Source: Caulobacteraceae bacterium
GTDB lineage: Bacteria; Pseudomonadota; Alphaproteobacteria; Caulobacterales; Caulobacteraceae
Assembly (NCBI GenBank): GCA_027452265.1
Contig: DAIDGR010000017.1
Span: forward strand, 22,732 to 86,731
DNA length: 64,000 bases
Reading direction: 5' to 3'
The translations under genes and the position numbers were made by a program. Below the pieces are notes generated by a model. That model saw only the letters and a program-made list of their open reading frames with translations, was not told the DNA's origin and did not search any database. Positions 2,996-10,088 of this stretch are shown piece after piece. Numbering within the stretch: position 1 is the first letter of the stretch; the number at the start of each line of letters is the position of its first letter.

Positions 2996-3877
2996 ATGCA
3001 TCCCCTTTTGGCGAAACTCGGTCTGGGCGTGGCCCAGTTCGGCCTCGATGGAAGGTCGCGCGGGGCGGCGCGTCCGCCCGAGATTGAGGTGCGCGATATG
3101 CTGGCCCTGGCCGAACGCTCGGGCCTGTCGGTGCTCGACGCCGGCGCCGCCTCGGCCCATGGCGAGGCCGTGATTGGCGCGGTCATGCCCCGGCCCTGGG
3201 GTCTGCGCGTGACCGTGCGCGCCGCGCGCGGCGACAAGGGCCCCGATCATGTGGAGGCCGAGGCGCGCGCCTCTCTGGCTCGCCTGGGCGTCCAGAAAGC
3301 CGACGCCATCATGGTCCAGGCCGCGGGCGACCTGTTCTCGCCATTTGGGGCTGAGATGTGGACGCGCCTGCTTCGCCTGCGCGATGAGGGCCTGTTCGAC
3401 CGCGTGGGGATCTCGGCCTACGCCTCCGATGATCCGCCTGGCCTGGCCCGGCGCTTTCACCCCGATCTGATCCAGGCGCCTGCCAGCCTCCTCGACCAGA
3501 GGCTTCTGGTGGATGGCAGCCTCAAGGCCGTGCGCGACCTCGGCGTCGAGGTGCATCTGCGCGCGATCTTCCTCAATGGCCCCCTGTTCCGCCCGGCGGA
3601 CCGGGCTCCGGCGCACCTGAAGGCGGCGGCCATCCGCCTGTCCCGCGCCCGCCGCCTGATCGCCGAGGGCCGCAGTGATCCGCTACAGGCGGCTCTCGGC
3701 TTCGCCCTTTCGCGACATGAAGCCGACGTGGTCATCGCTGGCGCGTCCTCGGCGGCGGAGCTTTCGGCCATCATCGCCGCGGCCTCCAACCCTCCCCCCG
3801 ATCTCGACTGGGACGACATGGCGCTGGAGGAGCCGGATCTGTTCGACCCGACCCCTCACCGCTGGGCGGCCGCCTAA
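2996..3877 (+). CDS. aldo/keto reductase-fold protein with degenerate catalytic tetrad
   Basis: The track ORF runs from 2045, but homology begins only at the ATG at 2996 (MHPLLAKLGLGVAQFG), giving 293 residues; the upstream part is antisense to the siroheme gene. The sequence follows the TIM-barrel reductases of the LGLGTxQFG type, for example ARASLARLGVQKADAI, LRLRDEGLFDRVGISAY and DLIQAPASLLDQRLL. Three of the four usual catalytic residues appear changed: the Asp is kept (48), Tyr becomes Ser53 in VLDAGAASAHGEAV, Lys becomes Val74 in RVTVRA, and His becomes Gln108 in IMVQAAGDL. A binding or pseudoenzyme role is therefore possible. The stop overlaps the btuB stop by four bases. Confidence 0.78.
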   Translation: MHPLLAKLGLGVAQFGLDGRSRGAARPPEIEVRDMLALAERSGLSVLDAGAASAHGEAVIGAVMPRPWGLRVTVRAARGDKGPDHVEAEARASLARLGVQKADAIMVQAAGDLFSPFGAEMWTRLLRLRDEGLFDRVGISAYASDDPPGLARRFHPDLIQAPASLLDQRLLVDGSLKAVRDLGVEVHLRAIFLNGPLFRPADRAPAHLKAAAIRLSRARRLIAEGRSDPLQAALGFALSRHEADVVIAGASSAAELSAIIAAASNPPPDLDWDDMALEEPDLFDPTPHRWAAA

Positions 3878-5823
3878 CCCCCCGGCCTGGCGGCGTCGAA
3901 GCTCCATGTCACGCCACCAAAGGCGCCGATCCCTGGGCGCTCGAACCCGATCGGGTCCTGATAGTGGCGATTCAAGAGGTTATCGATCCTGGCGAACAGG
4001 CTGATCCGGTCATCCAGCCTGTAGGTCGCCGCCAGATCGACCGTGGCGTAGGGGCTGGCCCACAGGCGTGGAACGCTGAAATCGCGGCTCGCATCAACCC
4101 AGCCGCCCTTATATTCCAGTGTCGCTGACAGCTTGAGGCGGGAGGTCGCCGACCAGGCGCCGGTCAGGCTGGCCACGTCCTTGGGCCGTCTCAGAAGCTC
4201 CAGCCCCGTCGTATCGTCCTGGGTGAACGTGTAGGTGTAGTCCGCCCGCACGCTCAGACGCGAGGTCGGGTTGAGCGTGATGAAGGTTTCAGCGCCATAG
4301 GTCGTGGCCCGGCCGATATTGGCGTAGGACGTCCCGTCGGCATTGGTGTCGATCAGGTCCTTGATGACATTGTGAAACCAGGTTGCCCCGACGCGCAGGA
4401 CCGGTCCGAACAGAGGCTGCTCAAAGCCGATATCATAGCCCTGACTGCGTTCGGGCTTGAGGTTGGGATTGGCGAAGAAATCGAAGCTGGGAAAGCTGAC
4501 ATAAAGGTCCGACAGGGTCGGGGCCTTGAAGCCGGTCCCATAACTCGCCTTCAACTCCGTGCCGGTCGCCGCGATCGTATAGACGGGTGCGATGCGCCAG
4601 GTGGCCGCAGATCCGAACCGCTGATCGTGATCCTCGCGCACGCTGGCCGAGAGATCGAAGCCGCGCAGCGGCGTCAGATCCGCCTCCAGATAGGCGGCCT
4701 CGCGGGTGTCGCTGGCGTTGATCGGGCTGTCATTCAGGCGGTCGAGGTCCGCGTCCGCCCCACCGACCAGGGTGACGGCGGGCGATAGCTTCAGGGTTCC
4801 CTGCCAATCGCCCTTGATCCGGTCGCCGTTGTCGATGGTCGGCGGCGGGGCGCCAAAGCCATCGTTCGGTGAGAGGATCGTGGTGCGATAGAGGGTGTAA
4901 CCAAGGCCAAACACATCCTCCAGCCGGCCATCCAGGCTGCTCAGTCGCGCCTCCGCGCGGGTGAAAAGCTGGCGGGTGAGCTGGTCGGAGGGGTTGGGGT
5001 CGGGAATGGCCGGAAATACGCTGTAGTCTTCGCCGGTATAGTGCAGGTCGGCGTCGACGAAGCGAGCGACGAGACCCAGGCTGAGATCCGGGGTCGCCTG
5101 ATAGTCGAGCTTGGTCCCGGCAGTGAAGTTCTCGTCGCGATCCTTGTTGAGCGCCTCCCCGGGGGCGAGCAGGCCCGCGGGCGTCACCGGCGTGGCGCCG
5201 GAATAGTCATTGGCGACCTCGAGGCTGTAGTCGAAGCGCGAGTCTCCGCCCGACAGCCTCGCATTGGCGTTCACCGTGTCGAAGCTGCCGCCCTCGACGG
5301 TGGCCTCGATATGGGCCGGGCCGCTGCCCCGCTCGGTGATGATGTTGATCACCCCACCCACCGCGTCTGAGCCATAGAGGCTTGAGGCGGGGCCGCGCAG
5401 GACCTCGACGCGCGCGATCCCGGTAGTCAGGACCTGGCCGAAATCGAACGCGCCGACGCTGGGATCGTCCACATCGACGCCATCGAGGACGACCTTGGTG
5501 TGATCCGAATCCGCGCCTCGGATGAAGACCGAGGTAAGCCCCCCCGGCCCGCCGGTCTGGACGACGGCCAGCCCTGGCGTGGCGCGCAGCGCCGAGGGCA
5601 GGTCGCGCCACTGAAAGGTCTTGAGGTCGCTCGCCGTGATTAGGCTGATCGAACTCGCCACATCGGTGAGGGGGGTGGCGACCCGGGTCGCCGTGATGAC
5701 GACGGGGGTGACATCGGTGGGCTGCGGCGCCTGACTGATGTCCTGGGCCAGAAGTGGCGTTGCGGCGCAAACCGCGCCGAACAGGAACGCCCCGCCGGCG
5801 GCGGGGTTGAGGAGGGCGGACAT
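3874..5823 (-). CDS. btuB: TonB-dependent vitamin B12 (cobalamin) outer-membrane receptor
   Basis: The start at 5823 (MSALLNPAAGG) is preceded by a GAGG ribosome site and gives 649 residues with a signal peptide ending near PLLAQ. The track start at 5997 lies inside the riboswitch. A TonB box (PVVITATR) is followed by the plug domain (SISLITASDL, RGADSDHTKVVLDGVDVDDPS, VEVLRGPASSLYGSDAVGGVINIIT), then the beta barrel and the receptor-type C-terminus (RIDNLLNRHYQDPIGFERPG). The protein binds cobalamin at the cell surface and imports it using TonB energy. The cobalamin riboswitch just upstream on the same strand supports the substrate strongly. No btuCDF transport genes are in the window. Confidence 0.93.
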   Translation of the reverse strand: MSALLNPAAGGAFLFGAVCAATPLLAQDISQAPQPTDVTPVVITATRVATPLTDVASSISLITASDLKTFQWRDLPSALRATPGLAVVQTGGPGGLTSVFIRGADSDHTKVVLDGVDVDDPSVGAFDFGQVLTTGIARVEVLRGPASSLYGSDAVGGVINIITERGSGPAHIEATVEGGSFDTVNANARLSGGDSRFDYSLEVANDYSGATPVTPAGLLAPGEALNKDRDENFTAGTKLDYQATPDLSLGLVARFVDADLHYTGEDYSVFPAIPDPNPSDQLTRQLFTRAEARLSSLDGRLEDVFGLGYTLYRTTILSPNDGFGAPPPTIDNGDRIKGDWQGTLKLSPAVTLVGGADADLDRLNDSPINASDTREAAYLEADLTPLRGFDLSASVREDHDQRFGSAATWRIAPVYTIAATGTELKASYGTGFKAPTLSDLYVSFPSFDFFANPNLKPERSQGYDIGFEQPLFGPVLRVGATWFHNVIKDLIDTNADGTSYANIGRATTYGAETFITLNPTSRLSVRADYTYTFTQDDTTGLELLRRPKDVASLTGAWSATSRLKLSATLEYKGGWVDASRDFSVPRLWASPYATVDLAATYRLDDRISLFARIDNLLNRHYQDPIGFERPGIGAFGGVTWSFDAARPGG

Positions 5824-5964
5824 GAAAGAACCTCGCGGTTGGACGTGACACGTCACCGCGAATGAGACGCCTCCCCGCCGCGCCGGCGCCCATCTGGGTC
5901 GCCCGCCCGCCAGCTTGGTCGTCCGCCTCGGCTCACCCCGTCCGACGCGTTCGCGCGTGACCAC

Positions 5965-6142
5965 GGCGTGTGGCAGGTCTCCTGGCTCACGGGTCACTGC
6001 CTTCGACCGGCCTTCCCAGCCCGCGAGGGACCAGTGGCGCGCAAGGGTCTTCAGGCTCGCCGCTCACAGTTGCGGGGGCAGCCGCGGGTTTGATGGGGCC
6101 CAAAAGTCGAGGCCCGTTTCGCACCGCGTTCCCTATTAATCC
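5965..6142 (-). promoter_or_regulatory. cobalamin riboswitch (B12 element) upstream of btuB
   Basis: Read on the minus strand, the sequence begins TAATAGGGAA, then has GCTGCCCCCGCAACTGT, CCACTG, GGGAAGG and GTGACCCG, and closes with AGCCAGGAGACCTGCC, the B12 box, at 5972-5987. This order is the conserved core of the AdoCbl riboswitch class. About 140 nt separate it from the btuB ATG, enough for an expression platform. Binding of adenosylcobalamin is expected to lower btuB expression. Confidence 0.96.
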
Positions 6143-6182
6143 CTTTCGGGAGCCACGCCGCGAGGTGCGCCCCAAACGCGCC

Positions 6183-6671
6183 TCAAGTCAAGCTTGCAGC
6201 GGCAAGGGACTTCAGCGCCGCGCCGCTCAACCGCCGGGTGATCCAGGCCGAGGCCTCGATCGCGCCCAGGCGATCATAGAAGTCGCGGGCCGGGGTGTTC
6301 CAGTCCAGGACCGCCCAGTCCATCCGCGCGAGTCCCTCGGCTTCGCAGCGTCGGGCCAGATGAGCCATAAGGGCCAGACCCACCCCACGCCCCCGCGCCT
6401 CCGGCCGTACGAACAGGTCCTCCAGATAGATGCCGTGCCGGCCCTCGAAGGTGGAGAGATTGTAGAACCAGAACGCGAACCCCACCGGTACGCCGTCCAG
6501 TTCGGCAATGTCGCAAAAGGCGCGAGCGTGATCGGTGAAGAGCATGGCCTCGATGGCCGGAAGGTCGGCCTTCACCTCGTGCTCCAGCCGCTCATAGGCC
6601 GCCAGTTCCCGGATCAGGGCGAGCACGAGAGGCCCTTCGTCGCGCCGGGCGGGGCGGATGGTGAGGGACAT
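6183..6671 (-). CDS. GNAT-family N-acetyltransferase
   Basis: The 162-residue single-domain protein starts MSLTIRPARRDEGPLVLALIRELAAYERLE and contains the acetyl-CoA-binding stretch EDLFVRPEARGRGVGLALMAHL, with the R-x-x-G-x-G/A motif. It continues with MDWAVLDWNTPARDFYDRLGA, typical of the diamine/SSAT-like branch. A GGAGC ribosome site lies upstream of the ATG. These enzymes transfer acetyl groups to small amines or protein amines, and the acceptor cannot be read from sequence. Its stop lies about 40 bp before the riboswitch on the same strand, so it could share an upstream promoter, but the riboswitch itself should act only on btuB. Confidence 0.85.
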   Translation of the reverse strand: MSLTIRPARRDEGPLVLALIRELAAYERLEHEVKADLPAIEAMLFTDHARAFCDIAELDGVPVGFAFWFYNLSTFEGRHGIYLEDLFVRPEARGRGVGLALMAHLARRCEAEGLARMDWAVLDWNTPARDFYDRLGAIEASAWITRRLSGAALKSLAAASLT

Positions 6672-6787
6672 GGGCTTAGCTCCAGGGATAAGGCCCAGAG
6701 GGCCAGTCGATCTTGACCCCCAGGGTCCACGCGAGGCATGGGGAAACGCAAGAGCCTCGAAGCCGGGGCGAACGAGGGAGACGTTCC

Positions 6788-8164
6788 ATGCGGGCGATTC
6801 GCGCGGGGCTCGTAGCGGTCCTGATGTTGGCCTTTCTGGCGCCTGTGGCCGCCTGGGCCAAGGCGGCGGCGCCGCCGCCGATTTCCAAGGAGGCGCGAGC
6901 TAAGGGCATGGCCGACGCGCCGGCCCTGATCACGGCGTCCGGGACGGACTGCCAGCTCGCCGACGCCCGTCTGGTCGGCGAGGGGACGGACCCCAAGACC
7001 AAGATCAAGCAGACCGCCTATGAGGTGGCGTGCACCGGCGGCGAAGGCTTCCTGCTGGTCAAGAAGGGCGACGCGGTCAACGCCTTCCCCTGCATTCAGG
7101 CGGATATGCCCCAGGCGGACGGCAAACCCAGCACCTCGCGCTGCGAATTGCCCGGGAACGCCGATCCCAATGCCGGCCTAGCGCCCTATATCGCCAAGGC
7201 CAACCTGACCTGCGCGCCGGACAAGGTGCGCGCCATCGGCCAGTCCGCCACCAACACCTTCTTCGAGCTGTCCTGCCCGAACAATCCTGGCGGCTTCATC
7301 ATGGTCACCTCCTCGCCCATGCGCCCGGACAAGCCGGTTCAGGTCAATCCCTGCATCATGGTGCCGGAGACCTCGAACCTCGCCTGCACCCTGACGCCGC
7401 GCGCGGCTCAGCTTGCCGTGGTCGACCGGCTGAACAGCCTGGCCAACAAGAACTGCACCATCAAGGACGGGGGCCGCGGGTTCCTGGGCGAAGCCCAGAG
7501 CGGCAAGACCTATTATGAGGCGGCCTGCTCCGACGGAAAGGGCTTCATCCTGGTCGAGGCGCCCAACGGGTCGCTGGCCGAGGCCATCCCCTGCGCCGAT
7601 GCCGACATGATCCTGGGCGGCTGCAAGCTGACCGACACGCGTCAGGCCAAGACCGAACAGGCGGCGCTCTACACCGATCTCTCGAAGAAGGCGGGCTTTG
7701 ACTGCGCCGTGTCCGGATATGCGCCCCTGCCTGGCAAGGCGGGTCTCGCCAATACCGAGGTGGTCGAGCTGGCCTGCTCCAACCGGCCGGATGGCGGAAT
7801 CGGCTTTTTCGGAGCCACGGCCTCGGACCCGTCGACGGTCTATGACTGCGCGCGGTCGGAGCTTGTGGGCTATCGTTGCAGCCTGACCAAGCCCTCGGCG
7901 GCCTATGCCGCCCTGACGGCCGATCTCAAGGCCCTGGGCCGCGACAGCTGCACGGTCTCGGAGTCGCGCGTCGTCGGACTCAACGCCCAGGAAAAGACCG
8001 GGTTTGTCGAGGTCGGCTGTTCGGACGGATTGCAGGGCTACATGCTGAAATACAGCGTCGACCCGCCGCTTCCGATGAAGCCTCAGGCCGCGATCATCTG
8101 CGTTCAGGCCAGCGGCATCAGCGGCGGCTGCCAGCTTCCCGGCAACAAGCCCAAGGCAAGCTGA
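6788..8164 (+). CDS. secreted protein of five tandem four-cysteine repeats, function unknown
   Basis: The start at 6788 (MRAIRAGLVAVLMLAFLAPVAAWA) gives a signal peptide and is preceded by GGGAG; the track start at 6713 would bury the signal. The protein has 458 residues. After residue 40 it consists of five repeats of about 83 residues. Each has four cysteines at comparable spacing: 55/82/102/119, 142/163/189/200, 223/247/269/279, 306/330/354/364 and 388/411/438/448. A typical unit reads C, then YxEVAC, GxGFxLV, PC and GGCxL. Twenty paired cysteines after a signal peptide suggest a disulfide-stabilised periplasmic or secreted protein. I do not recognise the family. It stands alone in its operon and is followed by a terminator hairpin. 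Confidence 0.88.
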   Translation: MRAIRAGLVAVLMLAFLAPVAAWAKAAAPPPISKEARAKGMADAPALITASGTDCQLADARLVGEGTDPKTKIKQTAYEVACTGGEGFLLVKKGDAVNAFPCIQADMPQADGKPSTSRCELPGNADPNAGLAPYIAKANLTCAPDKVRAIGQSATNTFFELSCPNNPGGFIMVTSSPMRPDKPVQVNPCIMVPETSNLACTLTPRAAQLAVVDRLNSLANKNCTIKDGGRGFLGEAQSGKTYYEAACSDGKGFILVEAPNGSLAEAIPCADADMILGGCKLTDTRQAKTEQAALYTDLSKKAGFDCAVSGYAPLPGKAGLANTEVVELACSNRPDGGIGFFGATASDPSTVYDCARSELVGYRCSLTKPSAAYAALTADLKALGRDSCTVSESRVVGLNAQEKTGFVEVGCSDGLQGYMLKYSVDPPLPMKPQAAIICVQASGISGGCQLPGNKPKAS

Positions 8165-8200: not shown

Positions 8201-8226
8201 GGGCGGGCGCCGCAAGGCGCCCGCCC
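8201..8226. terminator. bidirectional terminator hairpin between convergent genes
   Basis: GGGCGGGCGCC and GGCGCCCGCCC form a perfect 11-bp stem around a GCAA loop, followed on the plus strand by TGTTCT. It lies between the stops of the five-repeat protein and the acyl-CoA ligase. The stem could end transcripts from both sides, although neither flank has a long T run. Confidence 0.7.
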
Positions 8227-8231
8227 TGTTC

Positions 8232-10088
8232 TCATGCCGTGGCGTTATCGAGGCGCAGGACAGCGGGGTCGTCAGGGTCGGCGAACAGCCGCGCCACCTC
8301 GGCCGCCCGTCGGGACCGGGCCAGGGCTTGGTTGATATACCCCTTGTCGGTGATCTCACCGGACGGGGCATGGGGCGGATCGCTCAGAATCAAGGCCCGT
8401 TGCACGCGCCCCGCGCCGCCTCGTCCCGCCCTGTTGAGCCGTTCGAGGCCTGACGCGATGGCCTGGCGTACGGCGGGCGCTTCGGCGAGATTTTCAGGCG
8501 AACCGCGGCTGGGCGCCGAGGCCTCGACCAGGTCGCGGCAGAAGGGTGCGTTGAGGAAGATCAGCAGGCCAACGCCGCTTTCGCCCTCGCCGCAGACCAC
8601 CGCGTCCGCCGCCGCGCCGCCGATGCTGGAAAGGGCGTCGACACGCAGGGCCCCGACATTGACGAATGTTCCGTTGGCGAGCTTGAAGTTCTCCGACAAT
8701 CGGCCATCGAACCGAAGGCCAAGCTCCGGGCGGCCCGGGTCCACTGGCGTCGCCGCGTCGCCAAGCCGATAGAACCCCTCCTCATCGAAGGCGGCGGCCG
8801 TGGCTTCGGGATTGCGGTAATAGCCCGCGCAGAGCTGCGGTCCCTTCACGCGGAACTCCAGCCGTCCCTGGGCGGGCGTGAGCTTGACCGTGGTTCCTGG
8901 CACCGGAAGACCCATCAGGCCCATGGTCAGGTTCGGCCAGTGGACATTGGTTGCCGTGGGGCCGGTCTCGGTGGCGCCGTAGCCGCTGGCGAAACTGATG
9001 CCCTCGCCGCAGGTCGCCCTGGCCACGGCCTGGATCCGATCACAGGTGCTCTGGGACAGGGCCGCGCCGCCATATTGCAGCACCCGCACCCGGCTGAAGA
9101 ACCGCCGCCCGAGGGTCGGATTGCGCTCCAGCTCGCCGGCCAGAAGGTCCCAGCCGGCGGGAACCATGTTGTGATAGGTCGGCGCGATCTCTTCGAGATT
9201 CCGCACCGTCTCCAGATGGCGCCCGGCCACCGGCTGGCCGGCGTCGATATAAAGCGTCCCGCCGCGATGGGTGACCATCTGCAGGATGGCGTTCGCCCCC
9301 AGGCTGTGGCTCCAGGGCGCCTGATTGACCACAACGGGCGGCTCGGGATCGTCATAACAAGCGGCCACCTGAGCGGCTGTGATGGCCACGGCGACCTGAC
9401 GGCAGATCACCGCCTTGGGCTGGCCGGTGGACCCGGAGGTCAGGAGCAGCTTGGCGATATCCTCGGGTCTTGCGCGGACGGGGGTTGGGGGCGCGCGCAG
9501 CAGGGCCTCAAGCGTCACATGGCCCGGGCCAGGATGGCCCAGCGCGATCACGGGAAGGCCCGCCAGGATCTCGGAGTCGAGCGCCGTGGCGAAGGCAGGG
9601 GCGTCGTCCACCAGCACCGCGCCGGGGCGGATCAGGTCCACCGCGTGCGCCAGGCGAGACAGGATGGCCCCGGCCAGGCCGTATTGCGGAGAGATCGCCG
9701 CCACGGGGATCGCCTGGCTCATCGCGGCATAGGCGATCAGGGCGTGGTCGATCCCGTTGCGCGCGAGCACCAGGAGCGGCGTCTCACGGGTCAGGCCCAG
9801 ACCCGCCAGGCCACCCGCCAGGGCGGCGATACGCCCGGCCCCCTCGGCATAGGTCAGGATCCGCCAGCCCGCACCGGACCGCTCGGCCAGCCAGGGGGCC
9901 TTTGGGGTGCGCGCGCTCCAGCGGGCCACGGCGTCGAGCGGCGTCGCCAGTCCGGCCTCCACGGCCCCGGGATGGGTCAGCAGGATTTCGTTTCCGTCGC
10001 GCCGTTCGACGCGCAGGCGGCGAGGCGCGTAGCGCGGATCGCGAAGGCCGAGCGCGGCCGGATCCGGCGCCAGGCGGATTTCACTCAT
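8232..10088 (-). CDS. AMP-dependent acyl-CoA synthetase, feruloyl-CoA synthetase family
   Basis: The 618-residue protein is an ANL-superfamily adenylate-forming ligase. The P-loop LLTSGSTGQPKAV lies near residue 215, the FASGYGATETGP adenine-binding motif follows, and the late RLGDAATPVD and LRFDGRLSENFKLANGTFVNVGALR stretches mark the hinge and C-terminal domain. The long N-terminal part and overall layout resemble feruloyl-CoA synthetases (Fcs), which activate hydroxycinnamates with ATP and CoA. A partner enoyl-CoA hydratase/aldolase or vanillin dehydrogenase is not beside it. The ATG overlaps the dihydroorotase stop by four bases, which indicates translational coupling. The exact acid substrate is not provable here. 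Confidence 0.82.
   Translation of the reverse strand: MSEIRLAPDPAALGLRDPRYAPRRLRVERRDGNEILLTHPGAVEAGLATPLDAVARWSARTPKAPWLAERSGAGWRILTYAEGAGRIAALAGGLAGLGLTRETPLLVLARNGIDHALIAYAAMSQAIPVAAISPQYGLAGAILSRLAHAVDLIRPGAVLVDDAPAFATALDSEILAGLPVIALGHPGPGHVTLEALLRAPPTPVRARPEDIAKLLLTSGSTGQPKAVICRQVAVAITAAQVAACYDDPEPPVVVNQAPWSHSLGANAILQMVTHRGGTLYIDAGQPVAGRHLETVRNLEEIAPTYHNMVPAGWDLLAGELERNPTLGRRFFSRVRVLQYGGAALSQSTCDRIQAVARATCGEGISFASGYGATETGPTATNVHWPNLTMGLMGLPVPGTTVKLTPAQGRLEFRVKGPQLCAGYYRNPEATAAAFDEEGFYRLGDAATPVDPGRPELGLRFDGRLSENFKLANGTFVNVGALRVDALSSIGGAAADAVVCGEGESGVGLLIFLNAPFCRDLVEASAPSRGSPENLAEAPAVRQAIASGLERLNRAGRGGAGRVQRALILSDPPHAPSGEITDKGYINQALARSRRAAEVARLFADPDDPAVLRLDNATA

Follow-up and report, generated by a model that had tools for sequence, protein, structure and literature searches.

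The gene located at positions 6788-8164 (+) of the window, that is, of the whole stretch of 64,000 nucleotides of DNA that was analysed, raises the question of what a probably exported protein consisting of five four-cysteine units does for the bacteria that carry it, and to which protein family it belongs. The gene, delimited by its open reading frame, its orthologues and its dN/dS, starts with an ATG at 6788, ends with a stop codon at 8162-8164, and encodes a product of 458 amino acids. An in-frame TTG at 6713 extends the open frame upstream of this ATG. Nevertheless, the ATG is the likely start, because it is preceded by a purine-rich stretch (GAGGGAGAC), the starts of the homologues align with it, and the signal peptide begins there. 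This signal peptide (6788-6859, +), read by eye from the sequence as MRAIRAGLVAVLMLAFLAPVAAWA/K, is likely of the Sec/SPI type, with cleavage after AWA (residue 24), and the homologues hold equivalent hydrophobic N-termini with A-x-A-like sites. Judging from these N-termini, the five-unit protein is most likely exported, either to remain in the periplasm or to be released, in agreement with the first-pass annotation, which had described it as secreted. The gene is under purifying selection, with a dN/dS of 0.13 against the 81%-identical homologue L031.

The protein contains 20 cysteines arranged in five quartets, and the first cysteines of consecutive units are separated by 87, 81, 83, and 82 residues (mean 83), which reproduces the original description of five units of about 83 residues with four cysteines each, 20 in all. 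As defined by their mutual similarity and by alignment, unit 1 comprises residues 35-122 (6890-7153), with Cys 55, 82, 102, and 119; unit 2, residues 122-203 (7151-7396), with Cys 142, 163, 189, and 200; and unit 3, for which the structural model described below was obtained, residues 203-282 (7394-7633), with Cys 223, 247, 269, and 279. Unit 4, which is distinct, spans residues 286-367 (7643-7888), with Cys 306, 330, 354, and 364, and unit 5 spans residues 368-451 (7889-8140), with Cys 388, 411, 438, and 448. All five are encoded on the + strand, and the last two, for which unit-specific profiles were also used, are missing from the three-unit homologues. The linkers are nearly fixed in length (about 22 residues). 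The units are alike beyond their cysteines, as the 10 pairs of units yield z values ranging from 2.7 (units 1-2) to 14.6 (units 1-3) against shuffles in which the cysteines were kept in place.

When 27 five-unit homologues, with identities down to 25%, were aligned without supervision, the 20 cysteine columns all proved invariant, and so did one Glu per unit, situated three residues before the second Cys. Likewise, the alignment of the three-unit homologues keeps 12 Cys and three Glu. In a larger set of 302 units, cut by their Cys positions and in which the cysteines are consequently fixed by construction, this Glu is found in all 302 and one Gly in 98%, while no other acidic residue and no His is strongly conserved per unit. 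The four invariant cysteines, together with the export signal, make two disulfides per unit very plausible.

Searches of Pfam, NCBIfam, and PDB sequences, conducted with the single sequence and with a profile, have returned insignificant matches only, and the family, which had not been recognised from the sequence alone, has not been recognised by these means either. The window protein matches no Pfam family at E <= 10, and ten homologues show no PepSY match at E <= 1 and no Pfam model at its cut-off. One orthologue holds a weak Pfam match to the protease inhibitor family Inhibitor_I69 (E 0.015, below the cut-off), and the matches to a clostridial hemagglutinin (E 0.29) and to MORF2 (E 0.089) were taken as chance. 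A single unit, modelled from ten sequences of two genomes (those of the window and of L031), adopts one helix and four strands, with a pLDDT of 84.5 and a pTM of 0.76. The fact that one unit models well alone supports the earlier claim of a repeating rather than a single fold. The full-length model, built from two sequences, is poor (pLDDT 49) and was left out of the fold search. When the unit model was compared with the PDB, no fold match reached E 0.1, and no significant one was found among viral proteins. Neither a confident match to a characterised domain nor a single non-repeating fold has emerged. Among the 50 fold matches listed, the highest query TM-scores correspond to Rv0603 (2lra), with 0.51, and UipA (7ath), with 0.50, both with insignificant E-values, and many others are generic four-stranded sheets, such as the blades of beta-propellers. 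By strand alternation, the invariant Glu and the second Cys are expected on opposite sides of the sheet.

Rv0603 and UipA are examples of PepSY, a small protein-binding domain, and the PepSY sequence profile independently finds their entries, with E-values of 0.01 and 0.018. When the profile of the units was compared with that of PepSY, P values of 0.0037 and 0.0076 were obtained, with a probability of only 5-9% over 22-23 columns. The comparison score was 14.9, a value reached by none of 120 column shuffles (7.4 ± 1.4), which are a lenient null, and the reversed comparison scored 7.1. In addition, the PepSY 'YE' motif aligns with the invariant Glu of the units. These data are suggestive of a PepSY-like fold, which should be taken as a lead and not as membership, because the units stay below the Pfam cut-off and do not hold the PepSY end motif.

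Regarding its distribution, a sequence search covering 398 genomes of the order has located the gene in 92, which all belong to the window's own family, and in none of the 305 sampled genomes from other families of the order. Only one genome of the own family lacked a match at first, and a profile search then found the gene there, so that it is present in 93 of 93. One further genome of the class sample, from a family outside the order, encodes a divergent three-unit form (L122, 206-1267, +), whose unit 1 contains a Gly-rich insert. This homologue is encoded on a contig of 11 kb along with what we read as hopanoid-type genes, its third-position GC differs from that of several neighbours, and it possibly arose through transfer or contamination. 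Another genome encodes L123 (5887-6285, -), a weak candidate for a single-domain form: this short protein may have a membrane anchor, and its one four-Cys unit is weak and lacks the Glu. Searches of plasmids, phages, and viral contigs revealed no homologue and hence no sign of a mobile gene. Among named genomes, the sole match is a copy with 81% identity from a metagenome-assembled 'Proteobacteria bacterium', and literature searches identified no studied homologue.

The gene stands by itself: it diverges from a GNAT gene (6183-6671, -) on one side and converges on the gene for an AMP-binding enzyme (8232-10088, -) on the other. Across genera, its neighbours on the other strand are metabolic genes, encoding for instance an MBL-fold hydrolase or an enoyl-CoA hydratase, with no functional link to the gene and no operon partner among them. 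The initial impression that the neighbours do not reveal its role is correct. The MBL-fold hydrolase, whose gene adjoins many orthologues, was considered as the target of a BLIP-like inhibitor and set aside, since its gene is absent beside the window gene. The conservation of the neighbourhood across genera points to vertical inheritance at one locus. Being universal in the sampled family, subjected to purifying selection, encoded at a conserved locus, and not covered by any family model, the gene makes a good candidate for an envelope function that defines this lineage and that annotation misses. In the same region of the window, a cobalamin riboswitch (RF00174, 110 bits; 5955-6172, -) is located upstream of a TonB-dependent receptor gene (3874-5832, -), which is consistent with a B12 uptake receptor. 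A cobalamin link of the five-unit protein was considered and rejected, since this receptor is a neighbour common only to L031 and the fold matches to BtuG2 and BtuK1 are generic blades.

A promoter-like site is found upstream of the gene (6713-6741, +), consisting of TTGACC (6713-6718), a 17-nt spacer, and GCATGG (6736-6741), and it was identified as a motif shared upstream of five-unit genes. TTGACC/G appears upstream of 37 of 48 such genes, versus 4.8% expected, and 36 of the 37 sites lie at -61 to -89, which represent fewer than 36 independent events because the sequences are related. Most of these sites are followed about 17 nt downstream by GCTTATG or TTTAAG, and this -10 side is weaker in the window. 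As for the terminator that the first-pass annotation had assigned to the gene, only part of the claim stands: sequence reading reveals a strong hairpin at 8201-8226 (+), GGGCGGGCGCC-GCAA-GGCGCCCGCCC, but it is followed by a T-poor tail (TGTTCTC), and a terminator scanner did not call it. Several orthologues hold hairpins with clear T-runs 3' of the gene.

The number of units does vary among homologues, a point that had been singled out for checking. Forms with five, three, or two units have been found, as well as single-unit exported proteins in one genus. The latter (L125, L126, and L127, open reading frames of approximately 160-177 amino acids with four Cys) show the domain in yet another architecture. 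According to unit-specific profiles, the three-unit form would consist of units 1-2-3 and the two-unit form of units 1-2. In a control on divergent five-unit proteins, these profiles assigned units 3 and 4 all correctly and gave mixed results for units 1, 2, and 5, and the assignments of the shorter forms are good rather than certain. The units largely keep their position identity across species, and do not appear to be interchangeable. In a tree of the shared region, the 18 three-unit proteins all group in one clade (100/94), beside four five-unit proteins of the same genus, and many three-unit genes share their locus with five-unit genes. The simplest reading is that units 4 and 5 were lost once, and that paralogue formation came afterwards. 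Such a single-step reduction from five units to three, with the locus unchanged, would offer a natural experiment on the role of units 4 and 5. Three five-unit paralogues (L035, L124, and L036) are encoded in genome G389, and about 9 kb separates two of these.

The reading that we put forward, with a probability of about 0.4, is that the protein is an exported, disulfide-stabilised, remotely PepSY-like multi-domain binder of envelope proteins. This multivalent binder is proposed by analogy with exported domains of the PepSY and BLIP-like kinds, which are thought to bind and restrain partner proteins (PMC2954215, PMC12714742): a sensor kinase is bound by DbfQ, a PepSY protein (PMC12714742), and relatives of this fold class are tandem, exported, and thought to inhibit their partners (PMC2954215). 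In the proposed mechanism, each domain would be formed by one helix and an antiparallel sheet of four strands, with two disulfides as clamps, and the five tandem domains would together act as a scaffold for multivalent binding. An envelope protein, such as a peptidase, a wall enzyme, or a sensor domain, would be held by each domain or by certain of the five positions, and would be restrained or tuned in the way thought for PepSY and BLIP-like domains. The binding, the partner and its restraint, and the disulfides are what we infer in this scheme, and the position identity of the units and their near-fixed linkers fit distinct binding positions in a defined assembly. To the idea that this is instead a previously unnamed domain family unrelated to PepSY we attach comparable weight. 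It would be a four-Cys helix-plus-sheet module present in 1, 2, 3, or 5 copies, almost confined to one bacterial family and universal there, and it would represent a new exported scaffold whose role in the envelope is specific to the lineage.

It is rather unlikely that the protein is a passive structural element of the periplasm or the cell surface, a rod or spacer that is stiff and resists proteases, with its length set by the number of units and with no specific inhibitory or regulatory role. Tandem Cys-rich units joined by linkers of nearly fixed length would suit such a rod, as would the presence of the gene throughout the family and the conserved -35-like site, which suggests steady expression. 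However, the apparent lack of interchangeability of the units argues against it, no anchor is seen at either end, and there are one-, two-, and three-unit forms, which a length-setting rod need not show. An improbable reading is that of a metal or small-ligand binder or scavenger, in which the invariant Glu of each unit, and perhaps the Cys, would act as ligands. The invariance of this Glu in every unit examined speaks in its favour, and UipA, one of the two best superpositions listed, is a uranium- and iron-binding protein according to a title cited by PMC12714742. Nevertheless, no second acidic residue and no His of the unit is strongly conserved, PepSY domains commonly carry this Glu too, where it may be structural, and disulfides are a better explanation for invariant Cys that occur in an even number in an exported protein. 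That the cysteines cycle between redox states, making the protein a thiol/disulfide buffer or an oxidative-folding helper, is very improbable: even though 20 conserved Cys are found among 458 residues, they form no CxxC motif, the closest ones are 10 residues apart, and they occupy fixed places in each unit, as in structural disulfides. An equally slim chance is left to a five-bladed beta-propeller with one blade per unit, since, despite several fold matches to blades (BtuG2, BtuK1, prolyl oligopeptidase, and others, with query TM 0.43-0.46), homologues with one, two, or three units cannot close a five-bladed ring and a confident helix precedes the sheet in the unit model.

Returning to the multi-domain binder, three known systems can be compared with it. 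The BLIP-like superfamily (BLIP, SmpA_OmlA/BamE, and PF11396 (BVU2987)) resembles the window protein in being exported and often tandem, and PF11396 proteins hold one to four tandem copies, each with helices and four antiparallel strands (PMC2954215). While BLIP and PF11396 copies combine a helix-loop-helix with four antiparallel strands, the unit model exhibits four strands but only one helix, and the BLIP-like structure 4fr9 superposes poorly on it (TM 0.35). The window protein has no Pfam match to BLIP (PF07467) or PF11396, and kinship with BamE (PF04355) was rejected after profile comparison (P 0.23 and 0.16). Alphaproteobacterial PepSY_2 proteins (PF13670) carry conserved Cys in our alignment, with 'CYE' at the same strand, but they are short single-domain open frames and their profile comparison with the units is negative (P 0.5). 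PepSY domains (PF03413) are, like the probable export product of the window gene, exported, and they measure about 60-80 residues and have a helix and an antiparallel sheet, as in the unit model. Their 'YE', located on the second strand, lines up with the Glu of the units, and they provide the best superpositions listed (TM approximately 0.5), with insignificant scores for both sequence and fold. Unlike PepSY, the units have four additional Cys, all invariant, and carry a Cys-x(about 9)-Cys tail at their C-terminus, and they are arranged in five tandem copies with nearly fixed linkers. The PepSY consensus end, D-A-x-T-G-x-hydrophobic, is absent from that of the units, which ends in Cys..Cys-x-Leu. 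If the PepSY link is right, these poorly understood exported regulators would extend to disulfide-clamped tandem forms.
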